Shown here piece by piece: positions 5,615 to 10,525 of a stretch of 63,939 nucleotides of DNA. The translations under genes and the position numbers were made by a program. Positions within the stretch are counted from its first letter, which is position 1. Each line of letters begins with the position of its first letter. The notes under the pieces are model-generated. The model saw nothing but the letters and a program-made list of their open reading frames with translations, made no database searches and was not told the DNA's origin. The stretch lies in assembly GCA_019119205.1 (NCBI GenBank), contig DWXK01000009.1, forward strand, positions 1 to 63,939, written 5' to 3'. This DNA is from Candidatus Mediterraneibacter intestinavium. GTDB lineage: Bacteria > Bacillota > Clostridia > Lachnospirales > Lachnospiraceae.

Positions 5615-6415
5615 ATGAGCATAACTGCAATTATAATAGCCGCTGTCGTTGTCGGCGGTACAGGTTTATTCATCGGTGTCTTCCTTGGGATCTCAGGTAA
5701 AAAATTTGCCGTTGAAGTGGATGAGAGAGAAGAAGCTATCCTTGACGTGCTTCCGGGAAATAACTGTGGCGGGTGCGGATACGCTGGGTGTTCCGGTCTT
5801 GCGGCAGCGATCGCTGCCGGAGAGGCAGAAGTGGGCGGATGCCCTGTGGGCGGTGCGCCTGTTGCAGAGAAGATCGGTAAGATCATGGGAGTAGATGCCG
5901 GTGCGCAGGAGAGAAAAGTCGCATTTGTAAAATGTGGAGGAACCTGCGAGAAAGCGAAAAATGAATACGAATATCATGGGATCCAGGACTGTACTTTCGC
6001 GAGCCAGATGCAGGACGGCGGAGCAAAAGGCTGTGCTTACGGATGTCTCGGCTACGGTTCCTGTGTGAAGGCATGTCCGTTTGACGCTATCCACGTTGTG
6101 GACGGCATCGCAGTGGTAGATAAAGAGGCCTGCAAAGCCTGCGGAAAATGCGTTGCAGCATGTCCGAAACATCTGATCGAACTGATCCCGTATAAACAGC
6201 AGACATTTGTACAGTGTAACTCCAATGAAAAAGGAAAAGCACTCATGTCAGTCTGTGAAGTAGGCTGTATCGGCTGCCGCCTCTGCGAGAAAAACTGCGA
6301 TGCAGGCGCCATCACTGTAAACAACTTCCTGGCACATATCGATGCAGACAAGTGTACAAACTGCGGTCTGTGCGCAGAGAAGTGCCCGAGGAAGATCATT
6401 ACGATGCAGAGGTAA
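5615..6415 (+). CDS. rnfB: Rnf complex subunit RnfB (multi-cluster ferredoxin)
   Basis: RnfB accepts electrons from ferredoxin and passes them into the membrane arm. The 266-residue protein begins with one membrane helix (about residues 4-26), followed by a four-cysteine domain (GNNCGGCGYAGCSG) and several 4Fe-4S motifs, including CLGYGSCVKACP, CKACGKCVAACP, CIGCRLCEKNC and CTNCGLCAEKCP. The last two resemble the additional ferredoxin module common in clostridial RnfB. AGGAGG at 5602-5607 precedes ATG 5615. It is the last rnf gene; downstream lies the 6420-6946 palindrome, then convergent apbE. Confidence 0.96.
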   Translation: MSITAIIIAAVVVGGTGLFIGVFLGISGKKFAVEVDEREEAILDVLPGNNCGGCGYAGCSGLAAAIAAGEAEVGGCPVGGAPVAEKIGKIMGVDAGAQERKVAFVKCGGTCEKAKNEYEYHGIQDCTFASQMQDGGAKGCAYGCLGYGSCVKACPFDAIHVVDGIAVVDKEACKACGKCVAACPKHLIELIPYKQQTFVQCNSNEKGKALMSVCEVGCIGCRLCEKNCDAGAITVNNFLAHIDADKCTNCGLCAEKCPRKIITMQR

Positions 6416-6419
6416 AACT

Positions 6420-6557
6420 TCCGCCGGAGGTACATATTGTCTGCGGACACGCTTTCGCTCGGAAAACAATGCAGCGGACACGTAAGAGCGCAAAGGACGC
6501 GCTCTAAGTGCCGGCATTGTTTTAACGGTCCTTGGACAACACGTACCTCCGGCTGGG
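6420..6557. repeat. Palindromic hairpin element, copy 1 (138 bp)
   Basis: One arm of a giant inverted repeat; copy 2 is the reverse complement at 6809-6946 with 119 of 138 positions identical and no gaps. The copy also folds on itself: GCCGGAGGTAC (6423-6433) with 6543-6553, TTGTC (6437-6441) with 6535-6539, GGAC (6445-6448) with 6528-6531, AAAACAATGC (6463-6472) with 6514-6523, and AGAGCGC (6485-6491) with 6499-6505 around an AAAGGAC loop. Five T residues follow the outer stem at 6558-6562, so it could terminate rnf transcription. No open frame of note. Confidence 0.9.
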
Positions 6558-6586
6558 TTTTTACCTGCCAGCAAGATTAAGTGAGA

Positions 6587-6630
6587 AGGAGGGGGAGGGT
6601 GCGCGCCTTTGGCGCTGCCTTCCCCCTCCT
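6587..6630. repeat. Central hairpin H1
   Basis: A near-perfect stem of about 20 bp: AGGAGGGGGAGGG (from 6587) pairs with the end at 6611-6630 around a TTT loop. It is purine-rich on the 5' side. Its GC-rich core resembles the reverse complement of hairpin H3 at 6739-6771, so the pair extends the symmetry of the flanking inverted repeats. Confidence 0.8.
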
Positions 6631-6642
6631 AGCTTCTGAACT

Positions 6643-6703
6643 GAAAAGGGGAGCGTCCTTGGCTGAACAGCCATACTGTTCAGCCGAGAACGCTCCCCTT
6701 TTC
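6643..6703. repeat. Central hairpin H2, about 28-bp stem
   Basis: GAAAAGGGGAGCG (6643-6655) pairs perfectly with 6691-6703, and GGCTGAACAG (6661-6670) pairs with CTGTTCAGCC (6676-6685); the five bases between are partly matched and the loop is CCATA. It lies close to the dyad centre of the 6420-6946 palindrome. It has no T-run and no coding capacity. Confidence 0.85.
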
Positions 6704-6738
6704 AAGCACAAATTTCACCTTCACTTTTGATGCTCCCA

Positions 6739-6771
6739 GGGAGGCAGCGCCGCCCGCGGCGCGTTCCTCCC
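6739..6771. repeat. Central hairpin H3
   Basis: GGGAGGCAGCGCC (6739-6751) pairs with 6758-6771 with one internal mismatch region. Read on the other strand it resembles H1, consistent with an overall two-fold symmetric block between rnfB and apbE. Confidence 0.75.
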
Positions 6772-6808
6772 GCCCCCTGTCCAGCAGGCTCCTGCCGGCC
6801 GGAAGAAG

Positions 6809-6946
6809 CCCAGCCGGAGGCATCCGTTGTCTAAGGGCCGTTAAACCAATGCCGGCACTTGGCGTGCGTCCTTTGCGCGCCTACGTGTCCGCTGCATTGG
6901 TTTCCGAGCGCGAGCGTGCCCGCAGACAATGGATACCTCCGGCGGA
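6809..6946. repeat. Palindromic hairpin element, copy 2 (inverted)
   Basis: The reverse complement of copy 1 with 19 substitutions. In this copy the self-pairing is kept: the outer stem changes C-G to T-A and T-A to C-G, the AAAACAATGC stem becomes AAACCAATGC with a matching G on the other side, the AGAGCGC stem changes two pairs in a compensated way, and GGAC/GTCC becomes GGGC/GCCC. A short TTTT lies just outside on the rnfB-distal side (6948-6951). It is adjacent to the 3' end of apbE. Confidence 0.9.
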
Positions 6947-6970
6947 CTTTTATCCCCAAACGGCAGGAAC

Positions 6971-8014
6971 TCACTGCGACAGGGGCAGATCTTCAGTGGT
7001 GGTATGAAGTTCGTAGTCTGAGGTGACGAATACAGCCTCCACCCCGTCCAGGCTCCGGATCAGTTCCATCCCCTTTTCCAGTCCCAGCGCGTAGCAGGTG
7101 GTGCTGAGGGCGTCTCCATCCACAGATCTGTCGGAGATGATGGAAACCTGATACAGGTCGTTCTGAATGGGGTATCCTGTGTCGGGATTGAGGATGTGGT
7201 GGTAGATCGTTCCGTCTTTTTCGAAATATCGTTCGTAGTTTCCGGAGGTCACAACAGACTGATCGTCCACTTCAAGGACCGCGATCGGCGTCCCGTCAGG
7301 TTCAAAGGGCTTCTGAAGCCCGATCCGGAAAGAAGATCCGTCAGTCTTTGAGCCGACGGCGAGCATATTTCCGCCAAGATTGATCAGGGCGTGTTCTACA
7401 CCTTCGCTCTGAAGATAATCTTTCAGGCGGTCTGCGATATAGCCTTTTGCGATGCCTCCGAGATCAATCTTTGTCATGGGATCGGTCAGAGTGACTGTGT
7501 TTCCTTCTACTTTAACGTTATGGTAATCGATATGTGCGGCTGCTTCCGCGAGAACTTCGGAATCCGGAAACTTTTTTTCTTCATTATCGGTAAAATCCCA
7601 CAGTTCGCTGGCGGAAGCGATCGTGATATCAAAATATCCGTCTGAGATATCACCGTATTCCAGTCCCAGCCGGATCAGTTCGGCTGTCTCATCCGACACG
7701 GTGACAGGCTGACCGCCGGAATTGTTGATCTTCGACACTTCGCTGTCCTCAAGAGTGCGGCTGAACAGATGCTCATAGCGGTCACAGAGTTCTTCGCAGT
7801 GATCCAGGATGTCTCTTGACGTGCCCCAGGCCTCTATTGTTACGACAGTGTCAAAATACATCCCTGTCATAGTGAGGGACTCATCTTTCTGAGGGGACGT
7901 GCATCCGCCGAGGGAGGAAGCCAGGAGAACACCCATACAAAGAACGGAAAGAGTACGGAAAAATATTTTTTTGAGGGGTCTTTTTTTGCCTGACCACAGC
8001 GTGAATGTTTTCAT
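6971..8014 (-). CDS. apbE: FAD:protein FMN transferase ApbE (lipoprotein)
   Basis: ApbE transfers the FMN part of FAD to a threonine in target proteins such as RnfG and RnfD outside the membrane. The 347-residue protein has a lipoprotein signal ending in the lipobox LGGC near residue 38. Family motifs are visible: TGMYFDTVVTIEAWG, DLGGIAKGYIAD, HALINLGGNM and the HHILNPDTGYP segment. The start at 8014 has AAAGGAT upstream. It is transcribed toward the rnf operon across the palindrome and has its own promoter (8056-8084). The link to rnf is inferred from proximity and known biochemistry. Confidence 0.95.
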   Translation of the reverse strand: MKTFTLWSGKKRPLKKIFFRTLSVLCMGVLLASSLGGCTSPQKDESLTMTGMYFDTVVTIEAWGTSRDILDHCEELCDRYEHLFSRTLEDSEVSKINNSGGQPVTVSDETAELIRLGLEYGDISDGYFDITIASASELWDFTDNEEKKFPDSEVLAEAAAHIDYHNVKVEGNTVTLTDPMTKIDLGGIAKGYIADRLKDYLQSEGVEHALINLGGNMLAVGSKTDGSSFRIGLQKPFEPDGTPIAVLEVDDQSVVTSGNYERYFEKDGTIYHHILNPDTGYPIQNDLYQVSIISDRSVDGDALSTTCYALGLEKGMELIRSLDGVEAVFVTSDYELHTTTEDLPLSQ

Positions 8015-8167: not shown

Positions 8168-10525
8168 ATGGGGGTGCAAAAAGCTGTGTTTACAACGGAA
8201 GAACTTTTAATGCTTGTGGAGAAAGCTCACGCGGACCGCTTTATACCGGCGGACAGAAAAAAAGAAAAGGTGATATCCAACGCGATAAAGAGCTATGCTT
8301 CTGACTGCCGCCGGGAGGATGTGGCGGCGGTATTTGACCGGACGGTCACCGGCAATGGAAAGAGCGGGTTTTTACTGGCGAGGAACGCATTGTACGGGGA
8401 TAACATGGGAAGGTTCAAAGAATACACGAAAGGCGGCAGGAAGATCCCTTTTGAGGAAATGGTAAGGTTTTACCGCCTGGATGAGAGCAAGGGAAATGAA
8501 CCCATGGCGGAATCCATCAGAAAATCTTTCTATCGCTTTGAGTATGAGGACGGGAGCGATATCGTGGTCTATCTTACCGATGTATACAGCGGGGATGTGA
8601 TTCCGCTGATCCGCGCCATACTTGACCATATCCGGGCAAAGACGGGAAGCGAAGGGACGGCACAGAGCACGGGAACTTCTCACGCAGAAATTCCGGCGGA
8701 AAATGCTTACACAGAAAGAGTGGAAGAATATACTGAGCCGCAGGAAGCGCCTCAGCCGGAAGTCCGAATCCAAAAGGAGAGTGAGGAAGTCTTTCCGGCG
8801 GAGACCTCAGGCCAGAGTGACATTGAACAACAGCAGGCTGAGATACAGCGCCAGATACAGCAGCTGATGCGCCGGCAGGAAGAACTGAACCGACAGGCGG
8901 AGGCGGAGAGAAGGCGCGCGGAAGAAGAGGCGCGCCGTAAAGCAGAGGAAGAGAGAAGGCAGGCAGAGGAAGAAGCGCGCCGGAAGGCAGAGGAAGAAAG
9001 AAGACGGGAAGAAGAGGCGCGCCGGAAAGCGGAGGAAGAGAGAAGGCGTGCGGAAGAAGAGGCACGCCGAAAAGCAGAGGAAGAGAGAAGACGGGAAGAA
9101 GAAGCGCGCCGGAAAGCGGAGGAAGAGAGAAGACGGGCAGAGGAAGAGGCACGCCGGAAAGCGGAGGAAGAGAGAAGACGGGCAGAGGAAGAGGCGCGCG
9201 CAGGAAAAGCGGAGGAACGAAAGGCAGCTGAACAAAGAGAACGGGAACTGGCAGCGGTCTTTGACCAGGGGGCGGCTGCATGCGCGCGCCAGGATTACGC
9301 TGCGGCGGTACCATATTTTGAAAAAGCTGCGATGGAATATGGCTATGTGCCTGCCATGGAAAATCTCGGATATATGTATACGAAGAAGGAGATGCTGGGT
9401 GAGCGTCCGGACATGGCGGAGAAATGGCTGGAGATGGCAGCGGAGCACGGCAGCAAGAAGGCGGCGGGCTCTCTTGAACTTCTCAGAAAGCGGGATATGT
9501 ACAAGATAAGGCTCAGCCATCGCAGGGACGCGGATGTAACCCGCCCGCTCCTGGCGAAGATGAGTTTTAACGACGCATTCATACTGTGGAGGAAGGGGCA
9601 GGATGCGCTGGAGGACGGGGAGGATCCGAAGAAAGCGTTCCAGCTTGTGAATGAATCCCTTCCCGGGCGGCTGAGCCAGACAAAATTTACCTTAGGCATG
9701 ATGTATCGCAAGGGGCTCGGTGTCCCTGTGGATAAAGCAAAGGCGGACGAACTTTTTGGAAGCCTCAGGAAGGAAGACCAGGTCATTTTCGGACGGTATC
9801 CGCAGACGGAGAAGGGCATGGAATGTGAGATCGCCTGGAAGGTGCTGCATGTGGACACGCAGAGGAAACGGCTTTTCCTTTTCAGCGAGAAGGTGCTGGA
9901 TATCCGTGTGTTCCAGCCGACTATGAAAAATTTTGACGCGGTGGTCAATGGGGCTGACCCGGACCGGGTGTATGACTCAAAAAAAGACGGAAATCTGGAG
10001 ATGAAAATGATCCTGGGACTTGCAGGCGGGCTTCGGTGGGATAAAAGCGAGATAAGAAAATGGCTGAACGGTCTTTTTGTCGGGCAGGCTTTCCGCTCCT
10101 ATGAGGAAGAGATGCTCTGCGAAACAGATTTTGAGACACTATACAACGTGGCAGACAGAAGCGGGAGGTTTACGACAAGAGACAGAGTGTCCCTGCTCAG
10201 CCTGGAGGAGTTTATCAAGTATATCGGAAACGGCGGCGATTCCATCACAGAGGATAAAAAGGGAGGTCTTGTCACTGCATACCGCTCGACCAGGGAGGAT
10301 CGCAAAGATTTTGGAGGTACAACAGCATATTCTGAGCGGATGGAAGAACTTGCATCAGGCGGATCTCCTTCCGACGGCGGGGGATGGTGGTGGCTCCGTA
10401 CACCGGGAGATTTTCCGGGAACGGTGATGTGCGGGCTGAAGGAATCGCTGGTGCTGGCGAAAGGGAATTATACGGGATGGAAACGGGGCGGCGTCCGTCC
10501 TGTGATCTGGATCACATGGGAATGA
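8168..10525 (+). CDS. Large unknown protein with charged repeat helix, Sel1-like and DUF6273-like regions
   Basis: I do not recognise a specific function for this 785-residue protein. Residues 1-170 form a globular domain with no family I can name. About residues 215-355 are nearly pure E, R, A, K and Q in alternating 14- and 15-residue units such as RRRAEEEARRKAEEE, a pattern expected of a long single alpha-helix or coiled coil. About residues 360-430 look like Sel1/TPR-type helical repeats (YFEKAAMEYGYVPAMENLGYMY). The last 250 residues (FGRYPQTEKG, IRKWLNGLF, WWWLRTPG, GVRPVIWI) resemble the DUF6273 domain seen in gut Clostridia. No signal peptide or membrane segment, so probably cytoplasmic. 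A terminator follows at 10569. Confidence 0.8.
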   Translation: MGVQKAVFTTEELLMLVEKAHADRFIPADRKKEKVISNAIKSYASDCRREDVAAVFDRTVTGNGKSGFLLARNALYGDNMGRFKEYTKGGRKIPFEEMVRFYRLDESKGNEPMAESIRKSFYRFEYEDGSDIVVYLTDVYSGDVIPLIRAILDHIRAKTGSEGTAQSTGTSHAEIPAENAYTERVEEYTEPQEAPQPEVRIQKESEEVFPAETSGQSDIEQQQAEIQRQIQQLMRRQEELNRQAEAERRRAEEEARRKAEEERRQAEEEARRKAEEERRREEEARRKAEEERRRAEEEARRKAEEERRREEEARRKAEEERRRAEEEARRKAEEERRRAEEEARAGKAEERKAAEQRERELAAVFDQGAAACARQDYAAAVPYFEKAAMEYGYVPAMENLGYMYTKKEMLGERPDMAEKWLEMAAEHGSKKAAGSLELLRKRDMYKIRLSHRRDADVTRPLLAKMSFNDAFILWRKGQDALEDGEDPKKAFQLVNESLPGRLSQTKFTLGMMYRKGLGVPVDKAKADELFGSLRKEDQVIFGRYPQTEKGMECEIAWKVLHVDTQRKRLFLFSEKVLDIRVFQPTMKNFDAVVNGADPDRVYDSKKDGNLEMKMILGLAGGLRWDKSEIRKWLNGLFVGQAFRSYEEEMLCETDFETLYNVADRSGRFTTRDRVSLLSLEEFIKYIGNGGDSITEDKKGGLVTAYRSTREDRKDFGGTTAYSERMEELASGGSPSDGGGWWWLRTPGDFPGTVMCGLKESLVLAKGNYTGWKRGGVRPVIWITWE

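Follow-up and report, generated by a model that had tools for sequence, protein, structure and literature searches.

A dispersed palindromic repeat of Lachnospiraceae with a folded three-way-junction tip, in the host's genus mostly placed behind genes

Introduction

The EFAR elements of Enterococcus faecalis are modular palindromes, about 170 bp long, which enter stem-loops and retain a portion of the stem into which they insert. The attC sites of integrons are folded DNA sites with extrahelical bases, which stand behind a stop codon in constant orientation and are homogeneous within a genome. YPAL (RU-2) of Yersinia is a mobile 168 bp repeat without classical TIRs, whose targets span or adjoin dyad symmetry and for which empty and occupied sites as well as target duplications are known (PMC2229807). 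BOX and SPRITE of Streptococcus pneumoniae are both modular intergenic stem-loop repeats, one BOX forming a composite with T-box riboswitches and SPRITE being terminator-like (PMC3049150, PMC10969869). REPs are 20–40 bp long and carry GTAG or CGTC tags (PMC3733652).

Here we analysed a large palindrome between rnfB and apbE in the window, that is, the 63,939 nt stretch that forms one whole contig (DWXK01000009.1) of the Candidatus Mediterraneibacter intestinavium assembly GCA_019119205.1 (2.62 Mb, 104 contigs, 82% complete). Its arms are members of a repeat that is scattered through one family of gut bacteria, often in dozens of copies per genome, and the literature that we searched held no description recognisable as this repeat. 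By analogy, the repeat would resemble an attC site as a folded site behind a stop codon, in constant orientation and homogeneous within a genome, but it is dispersed and lies outside cassette arrays. Set against EFAR, it is family-wide and has a conserved tip. The repeat resembles YPAL in its probable mobility, in targets that would contain or adjoin dyad symmetry, and in being present at some and absent from other orthologous sites, but its tip is a three-way junction, it is placed against stop codons and its range is an entire family. Like BOX and SPRITE it is a modular intergenic stem-loop repeat, and it is reminiscent of BOX in that two copies adjoin sub-threshold T-box matches, but by description both BOX and SPRITE differ from it in architecture, and it occurs in 14 genera. 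REPs and BIMEs are likewise extragenic palindromes that occur in facing pairs and are possibly recognised as single-stranded DNA (PMC3733652), but the present repeat has a 113-position core in a unit of about 140–310 bp and no RAYT linked to it at 20 loci; it thus departs from REPs in both features tested, namely unit length and a RAYT gene flanked by the repeat.

Results

The rnfB–apbE palindrome consists of two folded arms and central hairpins

An inverted-repeat search of the window placed the arms of the palindrome, 162 nt each, at 6415–6576 and 6790–6951, with 83% complementarity and a spacer of 213 nt. The initial annotation of this DNA, made from the sequence alone, had described two gap-free arms of 138 nt with 19 differences, which was borne out, the inverted repeat being a little longer; it had also located the palindrome where the Rnf operon and its FMN transferase converge, and the rnfB and apbE ORFs do converge there. 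The features of the locus are as follows.

5615–6415, plus strand: rnfB, an ORF matching the NCBIfam RnfB families, whose stop codon abuts the left element.
6410–6566, plus strand: left arm, the first copy of the element, in the sense orientation of rnfB, recognised by the inverted repeat 6410–6448/6528–6566 and by its fold.
6450–6462, plus strand: P2, the mini-hairpin GC-TTTC-GC of the three-way junction, with the bases that follow it.
6473–6507, plus strand: conserved tip, recognised by unpaired columns in 48 copies and by folds.
6587–6630, plus strand: module B hairpin, GGAGGGGGAGGG...CCTTCCCCCTCC, z −5.3 against shuffles.
6642–6704, no strand assigned: central 29 bp hairpin flanked by A4 and T4, z −11.1, stable on both strands.
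6739–6775, minus strand: module B′ hairpin, the mirror of B, weak (z −0.6).
6790–6951, minus strand: right arm, the second copy of the element, in the sense orientation of apbE, recognised by inverted repeat and fold.
6971–8014, minus strand: apbE, the converging gene, an ORF with a Pfam ApbE match at E 1.6e-90.

The rnfB stop codon is included in the outer stem of the left-arm element. Each arm had been said to fold on itself, and both did so well below the level of shuffles (z −7.2 and −6.8), the entire 556 nt folding at z −27. The folds of the two 138 nt arms have 50 base pairs in common, and five of these, at 6433–6543, 6447–6529, 6466–6520, 6485–6505 and 6487–6503, are changed on both sides and still paired, against 0.9 expected under random placement of changes (P = 0.0003); six had been counted, and a sixth candidate, 6434/6542, is a non-standard A–C pair in the left arm. 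Of three central hairpins that had been proposed, those at 6587–6630 and 6642–6704 are strong, but the third, at 6739–6775, folds at shuffle level. The central hairpin at 6642–6704 is terminator-like in shape only, its tail being just four T, and a scan of 6380–7000 for intrinsic terminators returned no site under its rule of a G+C-rich stem, a short loop and a T-run. Rfam gave no match in the window at gathering score, and relaxed thresholds gave 24 sub-threshold hits around the locus, mostly to microRNA models and none of them meaningful. By eye, hairpins resembling module B follow several other copies of the element. Beyond apbE lies a long ORF (8168–10525) whose middle part is a highly repetitive EEARRKAEEERR sequence.

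The arms belong to a dispersed repeat family

Using the left arm as a blastn query, 23 places were found in the host genome at E below 1e-8, both window arms counted. A covariance model with a core of 113 positions, built from 48 copies of the genus, matched the left arm at 6434–6548 (118 bits) and the right arm at 6818–6932 (112 bits). With stricter filters and no more than 65, 12 and 9 candidates scored for each genome, the model searches gave counts that are lower bounds: at least 28 matches in the host genome; matches in at least 45 of the 58 genomes of the genus, host included, with 13 giving none; at least 30 of the 295 genomes of the order sample, all in the host's family and from 14 genera, with no match in 18 further listed genomes of that family or in any of the remaining 247; and at least 4 of the 398 genomes of the phylum sample, again all of the host's family. 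A pattern scan of named contigs pointed, among the matches listed, mostly to Lachnospiraceae or its genera, many being Candidatus Mediterraneibacter, with some Clostridium, Clostridiales and Clostridiaceae and two MAGs labelled Gastranaerophilales and Muribaculaceae. Neither blastn against plasmids nor exact pattern search of viral contigs returned the repeat. The proposal of a REP/MITE-like repeat family was right in kind, with further copies located by both blastn and the model in the host, and by the model in other Lachnospiraceae.

The best host match of the left arm is a copy on another contig (94%), as is that of the right arm (88%), compared with 86% between the two arms, and among five facing pairs the partner was the closest relative in the host in only 1 of 10 directional checks. 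Since the arms are closer to copies on other contigs than to each other, the giant palindrome represents two copies facing each other behind convergent genes, and its arms are two members of a dispersed repeat and no local inverted duplication. The earlier view that it is more than an old inverted duplication agrees with the extreme covariation and with a facing partner that is not the closest host relative in 9 of the 10 checks. Genome G007 holds an orthologue of each window arm, at 98.6% and 99.3%.

Each long hairpin unit ends in a covarying three-way junction

The repeat unit, about 140–310 bp in length, is a long hairpin in which an outer stem of locus-specific sequence leads to a three-way-junction tip. 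The junction carries a mini-hairpin, in which GC and GC enclose a four-base loop, and a long stem. This stem is interrupted by an AG bulge and a UA/AA internal loop and closes in an apical loop, which in the left arm lie at 6473–6474, at 6483–6484 with 6506–6507, and at 6492–6498 (AAAGGAC), respectively. Several unpaired columns of the tip are invariant or nearly so in the 48 copies, several of the invariant columns falling on unpaired bases, and both pairs of P2 are swapped for A–U or U–A in some copies. Double changes were found at 40 of 44 pairs among the 48 genus copies and at all 33 of the 33 model pairs among 72 matches from other genera, where 93.3% of the alignment cells were paired, against at most 43.1% when the partners were slid, in an alignment that was fitted to the structure and therefore leans to it.

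The long form in genome G337, of about 310 bp, carries a further hairpin block inside the same element; at L205–L224 this block consists of covarying hairpins with TTCG loops. In the same 2.45 Mb genome, a 20 nt end sequence occurs 56 times with up to 3 mismatches (reversed control, 0), and these ends border 204 bp, about 310 bp and core-less hairpins. Ends are common to the copies within a genome (G337, G020), and by eye no common end was seen across genera. Considered as transposon TIRs, the G337 ends turned out to be terminator-like hairpins, of which some have no core; in nine G337 stretches with ORFs read by eye, no obvious transposase of a parent transposon lay between the ends.

In the genus most copies lie behind stop codons, and facing pairs occur

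For placement in the genus, 80 loci were oriented, of which 75 held a core, and removal of 2 double entries and 7 loci near contig ends left 66. A same-strand coding stop lay within 120 nt upstream in 49 of these 66 copies, compared with an opposite-strand stop at the mirror position in 8. In genome G020, where five further loci gave no core match, 22 of 25 cores followed a coding sequence, 19 of the 22 at 56–60 nt from its stop. Stem tracing of 55 loci, two of them entered twice, put the outermost stem pair no more than 12 nt from the stop codon in 38 of them, with the median at the last base of the stop, and at L005 the 3′ arm mirrors the last codons and the stop codon of the coding sequence. 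Placement against stop codons is less regular in other genera: of the 55 loci examined among the 60 fetched, 29 were in the sense and 16 in the mirror position, and by genome the placement held in 10 of 11 (G337), 5 of 6 (G291) and 0 of 7 (G085).

Two matches at most 700 bp apart were found at 15 loci of the host, G007 and other genera, plus followed by minus in every case and hence facing, with an additional minus match at L128, three weak partners of 23–25 bits, and G007 pairs that are partly orthologues of host pairs; L199, with overlapping matches on both strands, was left out of this count. At 0.8–1.1 kb, three pairs face and one (L120) diverges.

Six genus copies stand, by eye, behind a T-run (L014, L032, L035, L045, L046 and L053), and five of them precede a putative isoleucyl-tRNA synthetase gene (ileS-like), so called from a sequence motif. 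A T-box search of G000 and G020 gave in each a sub-threshold match adjoining a T-run copy (63.4 and 61.1 bits; gathering score, 93). Elements before the ileS-like gene were seen in several species (L014/L018, L032, L045, L046, L053), apparently in the same place, and the site looks retained across species. The L017 copy is flanked by genes running in the same direction, the downstream one presumably fabF as it reads, so that this copy is not a complete terminator unless the second gene has its own promoter. Downstream of L005, L008, L079 and L086, in 3′ regions of these genomes, there are hairpins of a different family, whose loop region contains the motif TGAG...CGAGTT; it is perhaps a terminator repeat.

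Sites behind rnfB are occupied in some genomes and empty in others

RnfB was found in 57 genomes, and the 30 most similar loci were fetched. The initial annotation had asked whether other genomes keep hairpins between rnf and apbE: an element stands behind rnfB in six of the 30 (G000, G007, G045, G055, G066 and G020, the last with its own sequence type) and is missing in the other 24, three of which have less than 350 nt behind rnfB. In G013 the rnfB–apbE interval is 63 bp long and contains one hairpin; it measures 109 bp in G003, 548–555 bp in G000, G007 and G045, and 753–757 bp in G055 and G066, two genomes in which a weak remnant (17 bits) is left of the copy on the apbE side. In G020 the gene after rnfB is not similar to apbE, and the 686 bp between the facing stop codons have mirrored ends within about two bases of each stop. 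At L182 and L184, the rnfB–apbE interval is occupied by stop-to-stop composites with mirrored ends and no core (TAAATTCGTATTT...AAATACGAATTTA in L182), and L185 and L187 begin like these.

Three upstream genes have the element in both the host and G020 (L001–L068, L002–L075 and L021–L062), indicating that favoured or retained sites exist. By their flanks, 19 of 23 host copies matched G007 stretches, all of which had been chosen for holding copies, so that empty sites could not show in this comparison. Within G020, near-identical copies stand behind unrelated genes. Mobility is supported by these copies together with the occupied and unoccupied rnfB sites, and we infer insertion from presence and absence at orthologous sites and from the near-identical copies.

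Pairing looks maintained as DNA

Selection on a sense RNA would accept G–U in stems, and A–C would not be expected. The counts were G–U 37 and A–C 45 of 2274 cells in the alignment of other genera, and 25 and 21 of 1294 cells in the genus core, 18 of these G–U falling in one pair, compared with 20 and 0 of 300 cells in the acceptor and T stems of 25 host tRNAs (other genera versus tRNAs, Fisher P 1e-7 with one pair set aside). Isolated 1×1 mismatches agreed, with G–U against A–C at 44 versus 48 and 27 versus 31 in the repeat, 10 versus 4 in T-boxes, a weak control, and 2 versus 0 in the few tRNAs. Folding favoured the sense strand in 15 of 49 and 8 of 50 repeat copies, compared with 24 of 25 T-boxes and 23 of 25 tRNAs; because the sense-minus-antisense energy is shifted by conserved loops, the pair counts are preferred as evidence. 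Double and single changes numbered 740 and 30 cells in the repeat and 114 and 13 in tRNAs. Since G–U is no commoner than A–C, pairing looks kept at the DNA level, which speaks against a sense RNA stabiliser. Selection on a DNA hairpin, copying from arm to arm, or the two together would account for this apparent maintenance as DNA. The suggestion of a stabilising 3′ element selected as RNA was not supported, as wobble pairs are not favoured and 24 of 30 rnfB loci have no element.

Discussion

The reading that we favour, and consider somewhat likelier than its negation, is that of a non-autonomous, dispersed palindromic DNA repeat which, in Lachnospiraceae, colonises the short stretch after a gene where its terminator lies. 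Its most serious competitor is inert debris, in which template switching copies arm from arm, so that the palindrome stays perfect and covariation arises without structural selection. Such copying would suit the almost invariable change of both sides of a pair (740 double against 30 single), the strand symmetry of the mismatches and the 3′ arm at L005 that mirrors a coding end with its stop codon, but arm copying alone would erase the bulge, internal loop and apical loop, which stay unpaired across genera, and near-identical G020 copies behind different genes need dispersal; we therefore hold it rather unlikely. A host-beneficial 3′ RNA element, in which the three-way junction, once transcribed, would shield mRNA 3′ ends or be bound by a regulatory protein and would be conserved on that account, seems to us unlikely to a slightly greater degree. 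The sense orientation directly after stop codons, the conserved unpaired bases, the very stable fold and the long G337 form with its extra TTCG-loop hairpins would all be natural for it, but G–U is no commoner than A–C, the sense strand folds better in only a minority of copies, and the element is missing behind rnfB in most fetched genomes and unmatched in 13 of 58 genomes of the genus.

The two remaining explanations are both improbable. If each copy were an elaborated intrinsic terminator evolved in place behind its gene, the terminator position of the element and the A-run/T-run hairpins at the outer ends of G337 units, with and without core, would follow, but within a genome the copies after unrelated genes are alike in sequence, the core is matched by the model in 14 genera, and the L017 copy lies between co-directional genes. 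A REP/BIME family mobilised by RAYT, an HUH tyrosine transposase, would account for palindromes in facing pairs, as in BIMEs, and many genus genomes do encode proteins of about 250–300 aa with a Y1_Tnp match (L352–L371), putatively RAYT-like. However, the model found no match in 20 loci (120,740 bases) around these genes, with flanks mostly of 2.6–3.3 kb a side, shorter at contig ends and 0.2 kb at least; the genes also occur in genomes without repeat matches (G006, G023 and G051); no Y1 match was found in G056 (100% complete, 28 matches) or G060 (16 matches); and the units are several times longer than REPs. RAYT was accordingly rejected as the mobiliser for want of flanking copies and of a Y1 match in copy-rich G056. 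A group II maturase was rejected as well, its domain occurring in 19 of 58 genus genomes and being absent from copy-rich G012, G045 and G067.

Returning to the dispersed mobile repeat, the unit would act as folded DNA, either as a hairpin on single-stranded DNA or as a cruciform, and its folded tip may be recognised by a putative trans-acting recombinase or transposase. Once in place, the palindrome would grow as one arm is copied from the other until the selected coding sequence at the stop codon is reached. Its tendency to end at the stop codon, together with the mirroring at L005, points to template switching as the means of outward growth, with selection on the coding sequence setting its limit. 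Two copies and central hairpins would make up a stop-to-stop palindrome between convergent genes. Such a composite probably hinders transcription from both sides as a by-product, and the bidirectional transcription barrier raised initially is plausible, with the composite palindrome as candidate. The conservation of loop bases across genera could equally reflect a host function. Bolder, and on balance doubtful, is the idea of a new class of mobile DNA in Lachnospiraceae, in which a folded single-stranded three-way junction serves as substrate, is moved to gene ends by a putative recombinase, and turns the entire stretch separating convergent genes, from stop to stop, into one palindrome; if true, integron attC sites would have a dispersed counterpart in this class.

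Small palindromic repeats of bacteria have, to our knowledge, mostly been described from one species or one genus. Across 14 genera of a dominant gut family, the folded tip of the present repeat stays recognisable while the stems are rewritten; the repeat is homogeneous within some genomes and, in the host's genus, stops where coding begins. Its strand-symmetric, wobble-poor covariation offers a simple test of DNA-level versus RNA-level conservation, and warns that covariation alone is no proof of a functional RNA. The agent behind the movement of such repeats, and their influence on where transcription ends, become testable.
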